Shown here in pieces: positions 2,407 through 11,358 of a stretch of DNA of 64,000 nt. Source of the DNA: Sulfitobacter sp. OXR-159 (lineage in GTDB: Bacteria; Pseudomonadota; Alphaproteobacteria; Rhodobacterales; Rhodobacteraceae); the NCBI RefSeq assembly GCF_034377145.1, contig NZ_CP139707.1:2179001-2243000 (forward strand), written 5' to 3'. The first letter of the stretch is position 1. The number at the start of each line of letters is the position of its first letter. The notes beneath the pieces are model-generated. The model had not been told where the DNA came from. It saw only the letters and a program-made list of their open reading frames with translations, and ran no database searches. The translations under genes were made by a program, and so were the position numbers.

Positions 2407-2421
2407 GAACATATATGGAAC
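2407..2421 (+). promoter_or_regulatory. LexA (SOS) box of the radical SAM-UdgX operon
   Basis: GAAC, seven bases (ATATATG), GAAC is an exact match to the alphaproteobacterial LexA consensus GAACN7GAAC. It lies immediately before the ATG at 2424 and overlaps two upstream ATG codons, where bound LexA would block transcription or early elongation. The same motif precedes imuA at 5831. Confidence 0.8.
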
Positions 2422-2423
2422 GC

Positions 2424-3659
2424 ATGGCAAAACAGACACTCGATCAAAAACTGGCGATTCTCAGCGACGCGGCGAAATACGACGCCTCCTGCGCTTCCTC
2501 CGGCTCGACCAAACGCGACTCGCGCGATGGCAAGGGGCTGGGCTCAAACGAAGGCAGCGGCATCTGCCACGCATACGCCCCCGACGGGCGGTGCATCAGT
2601 CTGCTCAAGATCCTGATGACCAATTTCTGCATCTACGATTGTAGCTATTGCATCAACCGCGTGTCCTCCAACGTCGACCGGGCGCGGTTCAGCGTGGATG
2701 AGGTGGTCAAGCTCACCATCGAATTCTACCGCCGCAACTATATCGAAGGGCTTTTTTTGTCCTCCGGCGTGATCCGCTCCCCCGATGCGACGATGTCGGA
2801 TATGGTGCAGATCGCCCGCAAACTGCGGCACGAAGAGAACTTTCGCGGCTATATCCACCTCAAGACGATCCCCGATGCTTCCCCTGAGTTGATCGAGGAA
2901 GCAGGCCGTCTGGCGGACCGCTTGTCGATCAATGTCGAACTTCCCACCGACACGGCGGTGCAGCAATACGCGCCCGAGAAGAAGCCCGAGCAGATCCGCC
3001 GCGCGATGGCGAATGTGCGGATGACCAAGGAGGCGAGCAAAGAGAAATCCTTTTCCGGCAAGCGCCCGCCCCGCTTCGCGCCCGCAGGCCAGTCGACGCA
3101 GATGATCATCGGCGCGGATGGGTCGAACGACGCCACAGTGCTGGGCCAATCGACCCGGCTTTACTCCAGCTACAAGCTGAAGCGCGTTTACTATTCCGCC
3201 TTCTCGCCAATCCCCGACAGTTCCGCCAAACTGCCGCTGATCCGCCCGCCCCTGCAACGCGAGCATCGGCTTTATCAGGCCGATTGGCTGCTGCGGTTTT
3301 ATGATTTCCAGCTGGACGAGATCACCTCCGTCACCCGCGACGGCAATCTCGATCTGGAGGTCGACCCCAAGCTCGCTTGGGCGCTGGTGCACCGCGAACA
3401 CTTCCCGCTCGACGTCAACCGCGCCAGCCGCGAGATGCTGCTGCGGGTGCCGGGGTTTGGCGTGAAAACGGTAAACCGCATCCTCGCCGCCCGCCGCCAC
3501 CGGTCCCTGCGCTACGAAGACCTGACCCGCATGGGCGCGTCGATGAAAAAGGCCCGCGCCTTTGTCACGGCAGGCGGCTGGTCGCCTGGTGGGCTGACCG
3601 ACAGCGCCGACCTGCGCGCACGTTTCGCGCCGCCGCCCGAGCAGTTGACCCTGTTCTGA
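2424..3659 (+). CDS. Putative DNA modification/repair radical SAM protein
   Basis: This 411-residue radical SAM enzyme belongs to the family named 'putative DNA modification/repair radical SAM protein', usually encoded beside a DUF4130/UdgX partner. The cluster-binding motif is CIYDCSYC (CX3CX2C) near residue 70. The C-terminus has a helix-hairpin-helix DNA-binding motif (LLRVPGFGVKTVNRIL, near residue 340), so it probably acts on DNA. The ATG at 2424 was chosen because the upstream in-frame ATGs at 2403 and 2415 lie in or before the LexA box. Its stop overlaps the next start (TGATG), so the two are translationally coupled. The reaction is not established. Confidence 0.88.
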   Translation: MAKQTLDQKLAILSDAAKYDASCASSGSTKRDSRDGKGLGSNEGSGICHAYAPDGRCISLLKILMTNFCIYDCSYCINRVSSNVDRARFSVDEVVKLTIEFYRRNYIEGLFLSSGVIRSPDATMSDMVQIARKLRHEENFRGYIHLKTIPDASPELIEEAGRLADRLSINVELPTDTAVQQYAPEKKPEQIRRAMANVRMTKEASKEKSFSGKRPPRFAPAGQSTQMIIGADGSNDATVLGQSTRLYSSYKLKRVYYSAFSPIPDSSAKLPLIRPPLQREHRLYQADWLLRFYDFQLDEITSVTRDGNLDLEVDPKLAWALVHREHFPLDVNRASREMLLRVPGFGVKTVNRILAARRHRSLRYEDLTRMGASMKKARAFVTAGGWSPGGLTDSADLRARFAPPPEQLTLF

Positions 3660-5089
3660 TGCAGCGCGTCTCGCTCCCCCCCATCGGCACGGCGAAAGCA
3701 TGGCGCGAAGCGGCGCGCGGTTTTCTGGCTGCAGGCGTCCCGCCCGAGGATATTCTCTGGGGCGATCATGCCGCCGCGCCCGATCTTTTCGGCGGCGAGA
3801 GCATCTCACCTAAAGGCGGGCAGGTCTCGGTCCCGCGCAGCTTCGTCTCCATGGCGGAAACCGCCGTTTGGCACAGCGATCCGGAGCGTTTCGCGCGGCT
3901 CTATGCCTTTCTCTGGCGCGTGAAAGACGCGCCGCATCTGATGTCCGACCGGGGCGATGCCGACCTCGCCGTGCTGCGCGGGATGGAGAAGAACGTCCGC
4001 CGCTGCCAGCACAAGATGAAGGCCTTCGTCCGCTTCCGCGAGATCGGCGACCCAAACGCCCCGCGCCGCAGCTTCGCCGCGTGGTTCGAGCCCACGCATC
4101 ACACGGTGGAGCCGACGGCGGATTTCTTCGTGCGGCGGTTTTCCGACATGGACTGGCGTATCTTGACGCCCGATGTCTCGGCCATTTTCGAGAACGGCAA
4201 ACTCACGTTCCAAGAAGGGCACGCCAAACCCGACCTGCCCGAGGACGCGGGCGAGCAGCTTTGGATCACCTACTTCCAGAACATCTTTAACCCCGCCCGC
4301 CTGATGGTGAAGGCGATGCAATCCGAGATGCCGAAAAAATACTGGAAGAACATGCCCGAGGCCGCTTTCATCCCACAGATGATCGCCGAGGCCCCGGCCC
4401 GCGCCCGTGCCATGGCCGAAGCAGCACCCACCCTGCCGCCGGTGCGGATGGACCGGGTGCAGGCGCAGCTTTCGGCCTTCTCATCCGCTTGGGACGGCCC
4501 GATGGAGGACCTGCCCACCGCGATCCGCGCCTGCACCCGCTGCCCGCTGCATTGCCATGCGACCCAAGCCGTGCCGGGCGAAGGGCCAAACCGCGCCGAT
4601 CTGATGGTGGTCGGTGAACAACCCGGCGATCAGGAGGATCTCGCGGGCCGTCCCTTTGTGGGCCCTACCGGGCAGATGTTCGACCGCGTGGCGGCAGAGG
4701 CCGGCCTCGACCGCGAGGCGGCTTTCGTCACCAATGCCGTCAAACACTTCAAGTTCACCGCCCGCGGCAAACGCCGCATTCACCAGCGCCCTGAGACGCC
4801 CGAGATCGACCAATGCCGCTGGTGGATGAACGCCGAGGTGGCGCAGGTGCAGCCCAAGCTGATCCTCGCCATGGGCGCCACAGCGGCGCAAAGCCTGACG
4901 GGCAACGGCACGGGCATCCTGAAACGCCGTGGCACGATCGAGACGGGGCCAGAAGGCATCCCGGTGCTGATCACCCTGCACCCGTCCTATCTGCTGCGCG
5001 TGCCGGATCCGGCGCTGCGCGAAGAGGCCACGGCGCAGTTCCGCTCCGATCTGGCGATGGCGGCGCGGATGATGGCAGAGGCGGCTTAA
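3659..5089 (+). CDS. DUF4130 domain-UdgX family uracil-DNA binding protein fusion
   Basis: This 476-residue fusion has two parts. Residues about 1-250 match the DUF4130 'probable DNA metabolism' domain (LYAFLWRVKDAPHLM, then YFQNIFNPARLMVKAMQ). Residues about 280-476 are a UdgX-type uracil-DNA glycosylase. That part has cysteines for an iron-sulfur cluster (CTRCPLHC), motif A GEQPGDQEDLAGRPFVGP, the UdgX-specific insertion KRRIHQRP, and motif B HPSYLLRVPDP. In characterised UdgX the histidine of RIHQ bonds covalently to the abasic sugar after uracil removal; the residue is present here. The ATG at 3659 overlaps the radical SAM stop, so the operon is SOS-controlled by inference from the box at 2407. 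Confidence 0.93.
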   Translation: MQRVSLPPIGTAKAWREAARGFLAAGVPPEDILWGDHAAAPDLFGGESISPKGGQVSVPRSFVSMAETAVWHSDPERFARLYAFLWRVKDAPHLMSDRGDADLAVLRGMEKNVRRCQHKMKAFVRFREIGDPNAPRRSFAAWFEPTHHTVEPTADFFVRRFSDMDWRILTPDVSAIFENGKLTFQEGHAKPDLPEDAGEQLWITYFQNIFNPARLMVKAMQSEMPKKYWKNMPEAAFIPQMIAEAPARARAMAEAAPTLPPVRMDRVQAQLSAFSSAWDGPMEDLPTAIRACTRCPLHCHATQAVPGEGPNRADLMVVGEQPGDQEDLAGRPFVGPTGQMFDRVAAEAGLDREAAFVTNAVKHFKFTARGKRRIHQRPETPEIDQCRWWMNAEVAQVQPKLILAMGATAAQSLTGNGTGILKRRGTIETGPEGIPVLITLHPSYLLRVPDPALREEATAQFRSDLAMAARMMAEAA

Positions 5090-5724
5090 TCCTCGGGGTC
5101 GATGACCTGGAGCGTGCCGTCCGGCAAGGGGCGTTGCAGGCTGGGCAGCTCGGTCGTTTCAACTGTCAGCCACGCCTGCACCTCATCGGGCGTGGTCAGG
5201 ATCACCGGCATCGCCTTGGGGTGCACGGCCCCGACCTCGGCATTGGCTTCGGTGGTCAGAAAGCCATAGAGGGTATCAGTGGTCTCGCCGTCCTTCAGTT
5301 TGCGCACGCTCGTCCATTCGGTCCAAACGCCCGCAAAAAAGGCCAGCGGACGGTCCTCGCCAAGCGCGAACCAGACCGGGCGCGAGCGCTCTCCGGGGCG
5401 GTTCAGCGGTTCGGAAAAGGCGGTGAAGGGCACCACGCAGCGATGCTCGGCCCCCAGCCAGCGCCGCCAATGCGGCGAGGCGATGTTGCGGATGTTGGTC
5501 ACGCCGCGGTCGGTCTTCTTGCCCTTGAGCGCGAAGGCCGGAGAGGGCATCCCCCATCGCATCATCTCCAGCACCGGACCGCCATCGCCGTGGCGCACTA
5601 CCGGGGCGGCATAGTCGGGGTAGATACCGGGCATCGGCGGCAGGTTGCCTGTTTGGTCGTCGATGCCGTCGAACCAGCCGCGGATTGCGGCCTGCCCCTT
5701 GGTCAGGGAATAGAGATTGCACAT
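5086..5724 (-). CDS. SOS response-associated peptidase (SRAP/HMCES/YedK family)
   Basis: This 212-residue SRAP protein starts MCNLYSLT. In the family the initiator Met is removed and Cys2 forms a thiazolidine link with abasic sites in single-stranded DNA, shielding them. Other family marks are MRWGMPSP, NIRNIASPHWRRWLGAEHRCVVPFTAFSE (N and E near the active site) and HPKAMPVIL (active-site His). It converges on the UdgX gene with a 4-bp overlap at the stops and is divergent from imuA. The nearest LexA box (5831) is 107 bp upstream of its start, so shared SOS control is possible but unproven. A GGGG stretch precedes the ATG. Confidence 0.93.
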   Translation of the reverse strand: MCNLYSLTKGQAAIRGWFDGIDDQTGNLPPMPGIYPDYAAPVVRHGDGGPVLEMMRWGMPSPAFALKGKKTDRGVTNIRNIASPHWRRWLGAEHRCVVPFTAFSEPLNRPGERSRPVWFALGEDRPLAFFAGVWTEWTSVRKLKDGETTDTLYGFLTTEANAEVGAVHPKAMPVILTTPDEVQAWLTVETTELPSLQRPLPDGTLQVIDPED

Positions 5725-5830: not shown

Positions 5831-5845
5831 GAACAAAATGTGAAC
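5831..5845 (+). promoter_or_regulatory. LexA (SOS) box of imuA-imuB-dnaE2
   Basis: GAAC, seven bases (AAAATGT), GAAC is a perfect alphaproteobacterial LexA site 14 bp before the imuA start. It lies in the divergent region shared with the SRAP gene. Confidence 0.88.
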
Positions 5846-5859
5846 ATATGGAGTCGTGC

Positions 5860-6594
5860 ATGACAACCGATTCTACATATGGGCAGGTCCTTACCCTGCC
5901 GCGGCGGCTGCCGTCGACACCCCCCGAACCGGGGGTTCTGGCAGCACACGCGCCGCTGACGGATGTCTTTCCGGGGGCCTTCGCCACGGCCCCGGCCAGT
6001 GCCTTCGTGCTGTCGCTCTTGCCGCGTGGCAAGGGGCCGGTGCTTTGGGTGCAGGACTTTCTGTCGCGGCGCGAGAATGGGGCGCCCTATACGCCCAGCT
6101 TGCGCGACTTCGGGCTGGAACAGCCGGTGCTGCTGGTCACCGTCAGCCACCCGCGCGACGTGCTTTGGACGATGGAGGAAGGGGCCGCCTGTGCGGGGCT
6201 TTCTGCCGTGATCGGCGAGGTGCACGGCGGGCCGGAGGTGCTGGATTTCACCGCCACCAAACGGCTCTCGCTTCGGGCCGAGGCCTCAAATGTGCCGCTC
6301 TATCTCATTCGCAGCGGCGATCCCTGCGGCTTGAGCGCGGCGCGGATGCGTTGGCGCATTTCCTCGCTGCCCTCACAGGCCCATCCATACGATGCACAGG
6401 CCCCCGGCGCGGCCCGCTGGGATTTAGAGCTGTTTCGCGCGCGTGGCCATGCGCCGGGCCGATGGGTGGCTGCCCATGACCCCGACAAAGGCCAAAGCCC
6501 CCGCGCCGCGGATCGTCTCCGTCTGGTTCCCTATGCTGACGATGGAGCGGTGGCGCCGGGTGATCGCCCAATACCGCAGCGTTCCGGGGGATGA
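5860..6594 (+). CDS. imuA: ImuA, RecA-like mutagenesis accessory protein
   Basis: This 244-residue protein occupies the first position of the imuA-imuB-dnaE2 damage-mutagenesis operon. It resembles the ImuA/SulA-RecA-like family, with an N-terminal strand region (GAFATAPASAFVLSLL) and a central HPRDVLWTMEEGAACAG helix found in these proteins. The ATG at 5860 is chosen over the ATG at 5848 because GGAG lies 6 bp before it and 5848 abuts the LexA box. ImuA is thought to help target ImuB and DnaE2 to lesions through RecA and the beta clamp. It overlaps imuB by about 119 bp, a long overlap that couples the two. Confidence 0.85.
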   Translation: MTTDSTYGQVLTLPRRLPSTPPEPGVLAAHAPLTDVFPGAFATAPASAFVLSLLPRGKGPVLWVQDFLSRRENGAPYTPSLRDFGLEQPVLLVTVSHPRDVLWTMEEGAACAGLSAVIGEVHGGPEVLDFTATKRLSLRAEASNVPLYLIRSGDPCGLSAARMRWRISSLPSQAHPYDAQAPGAARWDLELFRARGHAPGRWVAAHDPDKGQSPRAADRLRLVPYADDGAVAPGDRPIPQRSGG

Positions 6595-8029
6595 GGTGCC
6601 CGTCGTCCTGTCGCGCGACGGAACCCATGGGCCGGTGGTCCATGGGCTGAGCGCTGCCGCCACGATGCGCGGGATCGAGGCGGGCGCGCGGGTGGTCGAT
6701 GTGCAAGCGATCCACCCCGATCTGCATGTGGAACCCGCCGATCTGGAGGGCGATGAGGCGCTGATCCAACGGCTGGTGCATTGGGCGCGGCGCTGGTGCC
6801 CTTGGACGGCGCGGAATCAGGACCATGGCCTGCTGCTGGACGTGACCGGCTGCACCCATCTGTTCGGCGGAGAGGTCGCCATGCTGCGCGACATCCGCAG
6901 CCGTTTTGCGCTACAGGGGCTGACCGCGCGGGTCGCCATGGCCCCCACTCCCGGTGCCGCGCAGGCACTGGCACGCTTCGGCTCCGGCGCGCAGATCTGC
7001 GGGGCTGAGGGCGTGGCCACCGCCCTCGCCCCCCTGCCCGTCGCCGCCCTGCGGCTGGATGCGCAGACCACACGGCTCTTGGACCGTCTTGGCCTCAAGA
7101 CCATTGGCGCGCTCAGCGATCTGCCCCGCGCCGCGCTGATGCGCCGCTTCGCCAGCCTCAAGCCCGATCGCAACCCGCTGATCCTGCTCGACAAAGCCCT
7201 CGGCAAGGCGCCCGACCCGCTGAACGCCCCGCCGGATCATCGCCATTTCATAACCCGCAGCCGCCTGCCTGAGCCGGTGATCGACCCCGCCCCGCATCTG
7301 CCCGCGCTGGTCGATAACCTCTGCACCCTTCTGGCCCGCGCCGAGCTTGGCGCGCGGCGGTTGCGCCTGACCATCTACCGCATCGACGGCGATTGGCGCG
7401 CGCTTGGGGTCGCCACGGCGCGGGCCAGCCGTGACCCCGCGCATCTGCGCAGGCTGTTCGACGGCAAACTGGAAAACATCGACAGCGGCTTCGGCTTTGA
7501 CCTGCTGACGCTGGAGGCGCTGACCAGCGAACCGCTGCCGCTGATGCAAGACCACCTCGACGGCAAACGCGACCCTTCGGCGGATGTGGCCGGGCTGCTC
7601 GACCGGCTCGCCGCGAAGCTGGGCGCGGACAAGGTCAACTGGCCGCAATGGCGCGAGACCCATAAGCCCGAACGGGTGGAGCAACGTGTCGACGCCCTGC
7701 ACGGCACCCCCACCGCCGCACCCGCCTTGCTGCGCGAGCGCCCCCTGCGCCTGCTAACTCCGCCCGAGGAAGTGCGCGTGATCTATGCCGTGCCCGAAGG
7801 CCCGCCCTCGCAGTTCAACTGGCGGCGCGTCACCTATAAAACCACGCGCCACACCGGCCCCGAACGCATCGCGCCCGAATGGTGGCGCGACCGCCCCGGC
7901 ACCCGGCTGCGCGATTACTACAAGGTGGAGGTCGAGGGCGGACAGCGCTTCTGGCTCTACCGCGAGGGGGTGATCTATGACGGTCGCGGGGCCGAGCCGC
8001 GCTGGTTTTTGCATGGGCTTTTCGCCTGA
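6476..8029 (+). CDS. imuB: ImuB, inactive Y-family polymerase-like mutasome protein
   Basis: This protein of about 517 residues has the Y-family polymerase fold (RIVSVWFPMLTMERWRR at the N-terminus, DHGLLLDVTGCTHLFGGE in the palm, then a helix-hairpin-helix near LGLKTIGALSDLPRAALMRRF). Known ImuB proteins lack catalytic carboxylates and act as a hub that recruits DnaE2 to the clamp. The N-terminal strand here reads VSVWFPML, without the catalytic Asp of DinB enzymes. An in-frame ATG at 6443 is an alternative start. The stop overlaps the dnaE2 start (TGATG). Confidence 0.9.
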   Translation: MTPTKAKAPAPRIVSVWFPMLTMERWRRVIAQYRSVPGDEVPVVLSRDGTHGPVVHGLSAAATMRGIEAGARVVDVQAIHPDLHVEPADLEGDEALIQRLVHWARRWCPWTARNQDHGLLLDVTGCTHLFGGEVAMLRDIRSRFALQGLTARVAMAPTPGAAQALARFGSGAQICGAEGVATALAPLPVAALRLDAQTTRLLDRLGLKTIGALSDLPRAALMRRFASLKPDRNPLILLDKALGKAPDPLNAPPDHRHFITRSRLPEPVIDPAPHLPALVDNLCTLLARAELGARRLRLTIYRIDGDWRALGVATARASRDPAHLRRLFDGKLENIDSGFGFDLLTLEALTSEPLPLMQDHLDGKRDPSADVAGLLDRLAAKLGADKVNWPQWRETHKPERVEQRVDALHGTPTAAPALLRERPLRLLTPPEEVRVIYAVPEGPPSQFNWRRVTYKTTRHTGPERIAPEWWRDRPGTRLRDYYKVEVEGGQRFWLYREGVIYDGRGAEPRWFLHGLFA

Positions 8030-11000
8030 TGCCCGAGCAAGAAGGACATAAACGCCGAACGCTGGGCGAAGACGGTTTTGCCGCCCCGCCGCGGGCGGAG
8101 TACGTGGAGTTTGGGCTGGCCAGTTGCTTTTCCTTCCTGCGCGCGGCCTCCGACGCCGTGGACCTGATCGAGATGGCCTATCACCACGGCTATGACAGCC
8201 TCGGCATCGCGGATCACAACACGCTGGCAGGTGTGGTGCGGCTGCATGTGGAGGCGGAAAAGGCCCATATCCGCCCCCTGATCGGTGCGCGGCTGGTGCT
8301 GCTTTGTGGGACTGAACTGCTGACCTACCCGCAAGATCGCGCCGCCTATGCGCGGCTCTCGACCTTGCTGTCGGCGGGCAAGATGCAATCGGTGGACGGC
8401 GCATGGCAGCAAAAGGGTGAGACCCATCTGACGCTGGAGATGCTGAGCCAACACGCCGAAGGGCTGCACCTCATCCTCATGCCACCCGAAAACCTTGATG
8501 TCTTTGCCGCTGGCCTGCCGCGTCTGGTGAAAGCGCTGCCGGAGATGCACCATATCGGGGCGAGTTTCCTCTACCGAGGAGATGACCGGGCGCGGATCAA
8601 CCGGCTCGATGCACTGGCCCGCGCCCATGGGCTGAGGATTTTGGCCACCAATGACGTGCTCTATCACGCGCGCCACCGGCGGCCCTTGCAAGACGTGATG
8701 GTGGCGATCCGCGAAGGCGTGATCGTGCCGAAAGCGGGCTATCTCTTGGCCGCCAATGCCGAGCGGCACCTGAAATCGCCCGAGGCGATGGCCCGCCTCT
8801 TCACCGACTGGCCCCATGCCATCGCCGAGACGCGCCGGCTGGCGGACAGGGTCACCTTTCGCCTCACCGATCTGGCCTACGAATACCCGCATGAGATCGT
8901 CCCCGAAGGCCGCAGCCCGATGGAGGAATTGGCGCGGCTGACATGGGAGGGTGCCGCCCGCCGCTACCCGCAAGGCGTGCCCGAGGCGGTGACCAAGACG
9001 ATCGAGAAGGAATTCGCGCTCATCTCCGCCAAAAAGATCGCCCGCTATTTCCTGACCATCTACGACATCGTGCGCTTTGCCCGCGAGGAAGCTGAGCCGC
9101 CGATCCTCTGCCAAGGGCGCGGCTCGGCGGCTAATTCGGCGGTCTGTTTCTGCCTCGGCATCACCTCGGTCGACCCGGCGGTGCACAACCTGCTGTTCGA
9201 GCGGTTCCTCAGCGAAGAACGCGATGAGCCGCCCGACATCGACGTGGATTTCGAACATGAGCGGCGCGAAGAGGTCATCCAATACATGTACGGCAAATAC
9301 GGCCGCCACCGCGCCGGGCTTTGCGCCACGGTGATCCACTACCGCCCGCGCTCGGCCATTCGCGAGGTCGGCAAGGCGATGGGGCTTTCCGAAGACGTTA
9401 CCTCGAAACTCGCGGGCACGATCTGGGGCAGTTTCGAGGGCCAGATGGACGACGCCCGCGCCCGCGAGGCGGGGTTGGACCTCTCCGACCCCTATCTACG
9501 CATGGTCCTGAAACTGGCCTCCCAAATGATCGGCATGCCGCGCCACCTGAGCCAGCACGTCGGCGGCTTTATCCTGACCGAACGCCCCCTGACCGAGATC
9601 GTGCCCATCGGCAACGGCGCCATGCCCGAGCGCAGTTTCATCGAATGGGACAAGGACGACATCGACGCGCTGCAGATCTTCAAGGTCGATATCCTCGCCC
9701 TTGGCATGCTCACCTGTATCGCCAAATGCTTTGATCTGATCGAGGCGCATTACGACCGCCCGCTGGAACTGGCCACCGTCCCGGTGGAGGATCACGAGGA
9801 CGACGCCACCGGGCGACCCACCTACGACATGCTCTGCCGCGGCGACAGTCTGGGTGTCTTTCAGGTGGAAAGCCGTGCGCAGATGGCCATGCTGCCGAAA
9901 CTGCGCCCGCGGGTCTTTTACGATCTGGTGATCGAGGTCGCCATCGTCCGCCCCGGCCCGATCCAAGGCGACATGGTCCACCCCTATCTGCGCCGCCGCC
10001 AGGGGATGGAGAGCGTCGTCTACCCCGCCCCCGGCCCGGCCTATCCGCAGGACGAGTTGTTCAGCATCCTCAGCCGGACGCTGGGCGTGCCGATCTTTCA
10101 GGAACAGGCGATGAAAATCTCCATCGACGCGGCACAGTTTTCCCCGACCGAGGCCAATGAGCTGCGCAAGGCCATGGCCACCTTCCGCTCGCGCGGGACG
10201 ATCGAGAAGCTGCAAGACAAGATGGTGGGCCGGATGACCAAACGCGGCTATGACCCGGTCTTTGCGCAGCGCTGTTTTGACCAGATCAAGGGGTTCGGTG
10301 AATATGGCTTCCCCGAGAGCCATGCAGCGAGTTTTGCCAAGCTGGTCTATGTCTCAAGTTGGATGAAATGCCACTACCCGGCGGCCTTTGCCTGCGCGCT
10401 GCTGAACTCCCAGCCGATGGGATTTTATGCGCCCGCCCAGATTGTGCGCGACGCCCGCGAGCATCAGGTTGAGGTGCGCGCGGTTGATGTGAATTACTCC
10501 GATTGGAACTGCACGCTGGAGCCCTGCGGCGACGGTTTTGCCCTGCGGCTGGGGCTGCGCATGGTGGACGGGTTGCAGGAAAAAGCCGCCGCGCGGATCA
10601 TGGACCGGCGCGAGGCGCCGTTCGCGGATGTCGAAGACCTCAAGACCCGCGCCGGCCTCGACGCCAAGGCAATCCGCCAGCTTGCCGCCGCCGACACGAT
10701 GCGGAGCATGGGGATCGACCGGCGCCAAGCGCTCTGGCAAGCGCAAGGGCTGCGCGACGCGCCCGCCTTGCCGATCTTTGACCATGCCGAGGCCGCGGCT
10801 CAGGGGCCGGAGCCCGAGGTCACCCTACCGGTGATGCCGAAGGCCGAACAGGTCGTGGCCGATTACCAAACCCTGCGGCTCTCGCTCAAGGCGCATCCAA
10901 TGTCCTTTTACCGCAGCAGCCTTGCCGCGCAGGGGTTTGCTTCGGCCCGCGATTTGGGGCGAATGGGCCACGGGCGGCGGGTGAAACTCGCCGGGCTGGT

Positions 11001-11358
11001 GCTGGTGCGCCAGAAACCCGGCAGCGCCAAGGGGGTCTGTTTCATCACGCTGGAGGATGAATGCGGCGTGGCGAACCTCGTGATCTGGCCCAATATGTTC
11101 AAGCTTTACCGCCCCACGATCATGGCCGCGCGGCTGCTGGTGGTCGAAGGGCGCGTGCAGACCGACGGGCGGGTGATCCATGTGGTGGCCGACCGGCTTG
11201 AGGACCGCTCTGACAGGCTTGCATCGCTGTCGGACGCACCGATGCCCGGCATCACCACGCGGGGCGATCACCCGACCCATCCGCTGCCCGGTCAGGTGGC
11301 GATACATAGCCATCCGCGCGATGCGCGGGTGATCCCGAAGTCGCGGGATTTTCATTAA
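8029..11358 (+). CDS. dnaE2: Error-prone DNA polymerase DnaE2
   Basis: This is a 1109-residue C-family polymerase alpha subunit. It has an N-terminal PHP domain (YHHGYDSLGIADHNTLAG), the polymerase core with the catalytic motif PPDIDVDFEHERREEV near residue 400, the GSAANSAVCF motif, a helix-hairpin-helix region and a C-terminal OB fold (KLAGLVLVRQKPGSAKGVCFITLED). Its operon position after imuB and its size, shorter than the replicative DnaE1, mark it as DnaE2. This enzyme performs translesion synthesis in SOS-induced cells and causes most damage-induced mutation in Caulobacter and mycobacteria. Confidence 0.96.
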   Translation: MPEQEGHKRRTLGEDGFAAPPRAEYVEFGLASCFSFLRAASDAVDLIEMAYHHGYDSLGIADHNTLAGVVRLHVEAEKAHIRPLIGARLVLLCGTELLTYPQDRAAYARLSTLLSAGKMQSVDGAWQQKGETHLTLEMLSQHAEGLHLILMPPENLDVFAAGLPRLVKALPEMHHIGASFLYRGDDRARINRLDALARAHGLRILATNDVLYHARHRRPLQDVMVAIREGVIVPKAGYLLAANAERHLKSPEAMARLFTDWPHAIAETRRLADRVTFRLTDLAYEYPHEIVPEGRSPMEELARLTWEGAARRYPQGVPEAVTKTIEKEFALISAKKIARYFLTIYDIVRFAREEAEPPILCQGRGSAANSAVCFCLGITSVDPAVHNLLFERFLSEERDEPPDIDVDFEHERREEVIQYMYGKYGRHRAGLCATVIHYRPRSAIREVGKAMGLSEDVTSKLAGTIWGSFEGQMDDARAREAGLDLSDPYLRMVLKLASQMIGMPRHLSQHVGGFILTERPLTEIVPIGNGAMPERSFIEWDKDDIDALQIFKVDILALGMLTCIAKCFDLIEAHYDRPLELATVPVEDHEDDATGRPTYDMLCRGDSLGVFQVESRAQMAMLPKLRPRVFYDLVIEVAIVRPGPIQGDMVHPYLRRRQGMESVVYPAPGPAYPQDELFSILSRTLGVPIFQEQAMKISIDAAQFSPTEANELRKAMATFRSRGTIEKLQDKMVGRMTKRGYDPVFAQRCFDQIKGFGEYGFPESHAASFAKLVYVSSWMKCHYPAAFACALLNSQPMGFYAPAQIVRDAREHQVEVRAVDVNYSDWNCTLEPCGDGFALRLGLRMVDGLQEKAAARIMDRREAPFADVEDLKTRAGLDAKAIRQLAAADTMRSMGIDRRQALWQAQGLRDAPALPIFDHAEAAAQGPEPEVTLPVMPKAEQVVADYQTLRLSLKAHPMSFYRSSLAAQGFASARDLGRMGHGRRVKLAGLVLVRQKPGSAKGVCFITLEDECGVANLVIWPNMFKLYRPTIMAARLLVVEGRVQTDGRVIHVVADRLEDRSDRLASLSDAPMPGITTRGDHPTHPLPGQVAIHSHPRDARVIPKSRDFH

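Follow-up and report, generated by a model that had tools for sequence, protein, structure and literature searches.

A 64,000-nucleotide stretch of Sulfitobacter sp. OXR-159 DNA (contig NZ_CP139707.1, positions 2,179,001 to 2,243,000), hereafter the window, hosts a two-gene operon encoding a radical SAM protein (rSAM) and a protein in which DUF4130 is fused to UdgX. The operon may encode a LexA-repressed, two-component enzyme that processes DNA lesions in the service of translesion synthesis, a reading to which we give a probability of roughly 45%. The main functional clue is a SRAP-domain gene and an imuA-imuB-dnaE2 cassette adjoining the operon, which went unmentioned in the preliminary description made from the sequence alone. 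The operon consists of the following elements:

2407-2421, plus strand: LexA box GAACATATATGGAAC (GAACN7GAAC), a perfect match 2 nt before the likely ATG 2424 of the rSAM gene
2424-3659, plus strand: rSAM gene, TIGR03916 (rSAM_link_UDG), 411 amino acids, with a CX3CX2C motif and a C-terminal helix-hairpin-helix (HhH)-like segment
3659-5089, plus strand: DUF4130-UdgX fusion gene, 476 amino acids, TIGR03915 at residues 10-235 and UdgX at residues 238-467

The perfect LexA site and the gene pair had been proposed previously, and both are borne out. The rSAM stop and the DUF4130-UdgX start share one base (TGATG), and all three NCBIfam models of this gene set score well above their curated cut-offs. 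The rSAM protein matches TIGR03916 ("putative DNA modification/repair radical SAM protein") with 587 bits (cut-off 343.5), the DUF4130 part TIGR03915 with 196 bits (cut-off 112.25) and PF13566 with 125 (cut-off 27), and the UdgX part TIGR03914 with 342 bits (cut-off 189.95), along with PF03167. The listed rSAM open reading frame (ORF) starts at ATG 2403, 5' of the LexA box; ATG 2424 is the likely start, as relatives are mostly 411-amino-acid proteins and alignment A1 agrees. With this start, the box spans -17 to -3.

SOS motifs upstream of the rSAM gene

One perfect box alone is weak evidence, because the pattern is not enriched genome-wide, GAACN7GAAC occurring 101 times in the 4.42-Mb genome versus 199 for the reversed control. 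It gains support from boxes of the same pattern, which precede recA (box at 1617196, RecA match from 1617330) and lexA (box at 1932057, LexA match from 1932105) of the same genome, and a perfect one precedes the imuA-like gene too (window position 5831). Homologous loci were searched from -250 to +30 of the start, extrapolated from protein alignment. The perfect alpha-type box is present at 71 of 72 alphaproteobacterial rSAM loci (reversed control 2/72): at all 44 loci from the rest of the class, and at 27 of the 28 loci of the window's family, window included. Its lack in close relatives, named in the preliminary description as evidence against SOS control, was not seen. The sole miss, L049, features GAACATATCATGTAC, one base off the box. 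Judged from these upstream motifs, SOS control of the rSAM operon in Alphaproteobacteria appears close to certain.

The alpha-type box was found at none of 29 other pseudomonadotan loci, 19 of which carry CTGTN8ACAG and 24 CTGN10CAG; the latter motifs occur at 1 and 5, respectively, of the 72 alphaproteobacterial loci. At two non-alphaproteobacterial loci (L093 and L097) the inverted repeat GGTCTCATCCAATGAGACC was found before the start, and an imperfect version at a third (L092).

Outside a panel of 398 pseudomonadotan genomes, which had been screened at curated profile cut-offs, a further contig scan confirmed at least 587 loci, the top-scoring 80 of which were analysed (by record title Bacteroidota 70, Moraxellaceae 6, Fibrobacter-type 2, Brachymonas 1, Clostridiales 1). 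CTAAN5TTAG, reported for Bacteroidetes LexA in the available sections of PMC8565304, has matches at 20 of the 80 loci, upstream in 17 and only inside the gene in 3 (shuffled expectation 0.8). GGAN5TCC was found at 11 of the 80 (shuffled expectation 3.1). In ten of these loci the motif is repeated three or four times, near -95, -72 and -54, and they adjoin a divergently transcribed gene for an HTH-S24 (LexA-like) protein; Pfam detects Peptidase_S24 and HTH_3 in one such protein. In total, 27 of the 80 loci have a SOS-type motif upstream.

L161, L163, L164, L167, L168, L174, L181, L184, L194, L207: divergent HTH-S24 gene and GGAN5TCC repeats

At L205 the S24 gene is present and the GGAN5TCC repeats are absent.

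The rSAM-DUF4130 core and optional UdgX

rSAM and DUF4130 are the core of the system, and UdgX is optional. In the genome panel, TIGR03916 is above cut-off in 84 of 398 genomes and PF13566 in 88. All 84 rSAM genomes feature DUF4130, and 84 of the 88 DUF4130 genomes feature rSAM; among the other four, G170 is a relic with a stop. Caulobacter vibrioides, run as a control, gives matches to TIGR03916, DUF4130 and UdgX. In 75 of the 80 further loci DUF4130 is found 3' of rSAM, in five of them after a gap of at least 1.3 kb (L196, L197, L199, L204, L219); L218 lacks a downstream DUF4130, as the contig ends there. Genomes were sorted into fusion classes by ORF length, by motif scanning and with tblastn: UdgX is fused in 63 of the 84 rSAM genomes, including G289, split by the contig end, and G251, where the frame is lost; 20 are unfused, and one (G481) is degenerate. 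A SOS motif of alpha or gamma type is still found in 18 of the 20 rSAM genomes without the fusion. UdgX also occurs above cut-off in genomes lacking rSAM, for example G150, G154, G235 and G250.

Some irregular arrangements have been observed. In G170 (L142) a standalone UdgX follows a broken DUF4130 piece, and is probably what is left of a fusion. G142 (C890), G348 (C32) and G360 (C45) each contain, besides the fused gene, an additional UdgX copy in a short frame. A hemerythrin-type-like gene, recognized by eye (L088, 3401-3946, minus strand), lies between rSAM and DUF4130-UdgX, and longer insertions occupy the same place in L090 and L095.

The literature search found no published function for the TIGR03916/TIGR03915/TIGR03914 gene set (NCBIfam rSAM_link_UDG, SAM_7_link_chp and UdgX), with which the window operon shares its domain content, and no paper naming both "UdgX" and "radical SAM". 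The preliminary description calls the role of the rSAM and DUF4130 parts unestablished, which is correct for their chemistry within the literature searched, where DUF4130 is named in one paper. We take COG4277 to be this rSAM. In the available sections of PMC8565304, a COG1573-COG4277 operon is placed in inferred Bacteroidetes SOS networks, and Verrucomicrobia and Alphaproteobacteria (Caulobacter) are cited; it is very probably the same LexA-controlled rSAM pair as that of the window. Membership of this named and widespread family and SOS control of the operon type are thus already known.

The same sections read the COG1573-COG4277 operon as a base-excision system, in which a uracil-DNA glycosylase (UDG) would deal with wrong nucleotides inserted by SOS polymerases, and the window protein does have a UdgX domain. 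At the Bacteroidota loci analysed here, in contrast, the partner is DUF4130 and no UDG domain was found. A query with the window UdgX gave no match in the retrieved flanks at any of the 80 further loci, although 75 have the rSAM-DUF4130 pair. Alignment A3 has a UDG match in 25 of its 83 members, the exact number of fused proteins entered, so that by subtraction the 41 DUF4130 proteins contributed by the further loci have no UDG match. UdgX, moreover, captures DNA covalently, crosslinking rather than turning over, according to the accessible parts of PMC10359453. Base excision is thus rather unlikely to be what the operon does, and the UDG label on the Bacteroidetes operon may be inherited from fused relatives. 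Because UdgX is optional, the system as a whole is unlikely to exist for repairing uracil or UdgX adducts.

Association with the translesion synthesis genes

The window operon is followed by a convergent SRAP gene and by the mutasome genes:

5086-5724, minus strand: SRAP-domain gene (PF02586, 3.6e-25), convergent with the rSAM operon
5831-5845, plus strand: second perfect LexA box, GAACAAAATGTGAAC, between the SRAP and imuA-like genes
5848-6594, plus strand: imuA-like gene, named from its position (NF033429, 21 bits, under the cut-off of 150)
6443-8029, plus strand: imuB-like gene with a Y-family polymerase domain (PF00817); GTG start as listed, in-frame ATG 6476 possible
8029-11358, plus strand: dnaE2-type error-prone polymerase gene (NF004225, 1386 bits, cut-off 939)

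The SRAP and imuA-like genes point away from each other on either side of the second box, which could control either or both.

Neighbourhoods were surveyed in the 83 other rSAM genomes, with the window proteins as queries, over up to 8 kb of flank, some stretches being ended by the contig. At least one of imuA, imuB and dnaE2 was found within 8 kb at 12 of the 83 loci, in addition to the window, where the rSAM operon is just upstream of imuA-imuB-dnaE2. Two families, f6 and f8, which account for 13 and eight of the rSAM genomes, respectively, supply the 12. At four f6 loci (L233, L235, L237, L253) the order is imuA-imuB-rSAM-DUF4130-UdgX-dnaE2, all in one direction, and dnaE2 starts within about 15 bases of UdgX in L233 and L237. 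Almost no gap separates imuB from rSAM in L233; in L235, L237 and L253 it measures about 1 to 2.5 kb, and the genes may or may not share one transcript. In L250, also of f6, only the downstream dnaE2 is seen, the upstream side being ended by the contig. In seven of the eight f8 rSAM genomes the imu cassette is divergent (L238, L239, L251, L252, L255, L256, L258). DUF4130 is located within about 4 kb of dnaE2 in two f8 genomes that lack rSAM, G312 (L140) and G382 (L141); UdgX too is absent from the fetched stretch of L141.

DnaE2 (NF004225 above cut-off) is present in 170 of the 398 panel genomes. It occurs in 72 of the 84 rSAM genomes versus 98 of the 314 others (Fisher 8e-20), and in 60 of the 63 UdgX-fused versus 12 of the 20 unfused genomes (Fisher 3e-4), phylogeny being ignored in both comparisons. 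DUF4130 has been noted with "SplB-like" rSAM and UDG genes in a SOS/mutagenesis network in the available sections of PMC3765255, a figure legend of which connects DUF4130 with rSAM and UDG. SOS motifs and mutasome neighbourhoods together support the SOS control and damage-linked role suggested in the preliminary description.

Protein features, mechanism and alternatives

Eight rSAM residues never vary across the 182 aligned rows (window counted twice): C23, C48, H49, C57, C69, C73, C76 and H145. C69, C73 and C76 form the radical SAM CX3CX2C motif, and the constancy of all six cysteines hints at a pair of Fe-S clusters. The HhH domain previously assigned to rSAM has weak profile support, RuvA and ComEA matching the C-terminal segment at E 0.03-0.7 only, although R341, P343, G344 and G346 of the segment are conserved in at least 98% of rows. 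Of the structural matches listed for the predicted rSAM model, HydE, lipoyl synthase and biotin synthase come nearest in fold, at about 8-16% identity; rSAM differs from these in its extra HhH-like region and in cysteine spacing. Among curated LipA/LipS models only LipS1 was seen, at 18 bits versus a cut-off of 230. The three invariant N-terminal cysteines have been compared with the auxiliary [4Fe-4S] cluster of lipoyl synthase in a region where the model is unreliable. Assignment of DUF4130 to the DHH/DHHA1 phosphoesterases (RecJ, NrnA, family II pyrophosphatase, Cdc45) is not supported: Foldseek gave E 0.019 at best and hhalign a probability of 0.1, the DHH and GGGH motifs were absent on reading the protein, and no such family was among the matches listed (25 of 37 Pfam families).

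Radical chemistry on DNA brings to mind spore photoproduct lyase (SPL), and an enzyme of this kind would reverse pyrimidine photoproducts. The radical SAM motif fits, as does the "SplB-like photolyase" wording found in the available sections of PMC3765255. SplB is, however, COG1533 in those of PMC8565304, separate from COG4277, and rSAM has three additional invariant cysteines. SPL is absent from the 21 PDB sequence matches and 50 structural matches listed, which is not decisive. Photoproduct reversal is on balance improbable.

Improbable to a similar degree is that the pair modifies DNA or nucleotides during SOS, installing a group, perhaps sulfur or methyl, instead of repairing. The TIGR03916 family name speaks of modification as well as repair, and the order of the cysteines resembles that of lipoyl synthase, the fold being similar as well; yet the cysteine spacing is unlike that of LipA, and no modification gene was recognized nearby in the top clusters, for which the neighbourhood was read.

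UdgX of the window closely resembles the Mycobacterium smegmatis protein (6AIL, 8IIE; E about 1e-47). Its signature is complete, with the GEQPG motif A, the KRRIH R-loop with the nucleophilic histidine and the HPS motif B common to both, and H375 corresponds to H109. Unlike the mycobacterial protein, it is fused behind DUF4130, in a gene overlapping the rSAM gene. The crosslinking histidine is retained in 81 of 84 aligned rows (window counted twice), the exceptions being L069, whose frame is lost, the degenerate L116, and L119, where UdgX is absent. This retention, and the pairing of rSAM with fused UdgX in 63 of 84 rSAM genomes, would suit an rSAM resolving the UdgX-DNA crosslink, as had been considered in the preliminary description, but UdgX occurs in genomes without rSAM and the pair without UdgX (20 of 84 rSAM genomes, 75 of 80 further loci), which makes this improbable and leaves it unsupported as a general function.

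Lesion processing by the rSAM-DUF4130 pair, the reading preferred here, could proceed as follows. DNA is the likely substrate. DUF4130 would present the DNA and position rSAM, which may contact DNA through its C-terminal HhH-like region. A 5'-deoxyadenosyl radical would be formed at the C69/C73/C76 cluster, and a second cluster on C23/C48/C57, perhaps with H49, may help to alter the damaged nucleotide. Made together with ImuA-ImuB-DnaE2, the rSAM module would act before or, possibly, during translesion synthesis. In many Pseudomonadota the UdgX fused to DUF4130 would cap uracil, or the resulting abasic site, at the same lesion. SRAP proteins crosslink abasic sites, shielding them from breakage, and the covalent UdgX cap would protect the abasic site in parallel fashion. 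UdgX may have joined an older rSAM-DUF4130 core.

A more specific version is a long shot. It holds that rSAM-DUF4130 is the first two-cluster radical SAM enzyme on DNA, remodelling a blocked nucleotide, for example by desaturation, cleavage or thiolation, at the stalled fork for copying by ImuB-DnaE2, with DUF4130 as a degenerate RecJ/Cdc45-like DNA clamp and UdgX capping the abasic by-product covalently. We know of no earlier description of such an enzyme with two clusters.

Several observations weigh against lesion processing under SOS control in the service of translesion synthesis. The mutasome and SRAP network treated in the available sections of PMC3765255 adjoins the operon in the window; 71 of the 83 other loci, however, have no imu gene inside 8 kb, and SRAP flanks the rSAM operon in the window only (0/83). 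DnaE2 is missing from 12 of the 84 rSAM genomes, and the co-occurrence statistics ignore phylogeny. None of the motifs tried was found at five of the 29 non-alphaproteobacterial loci of Pseudomonadota (L053, L087, L092, L093, L097). At 53 of the 80 further loci neither CTAAN5TTAG nor GGAN5TCC repeats were found upstream, and SOS control is therefore not supported there. The core pair is itself at times incomplete. Three f8 genomes (G295, G312, G382) keep DUF4130 with no TIGR03916 match, and at L145, L173, L211 and L214, the search covering the loci themselves, no DUF4130 adjoins rSAM although the contig continues with other genes; in L145 the 1320 bases 3' of rSAM code for a short-chain dehydrogenase. 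Finally, the N-terminal cysteine region is modelled at pLDDT <50, which makes any cluster geometry conjectural.

The conserved SOS box and the imuB/dnaE2 neighbourhoods direct the search for a function towards the treatment of lesions in the context of translesion synthesis, and UdgX is dropped as the explanation of the rSAM-DUF4130 core. The six rSAM cysteines are directly testable targets. Spore photoproduct lyase exemplifies radical-based DNA lesion chemistry; if rSAM-DUF4130 acts on DNA, another such chemistry would stand beside it.

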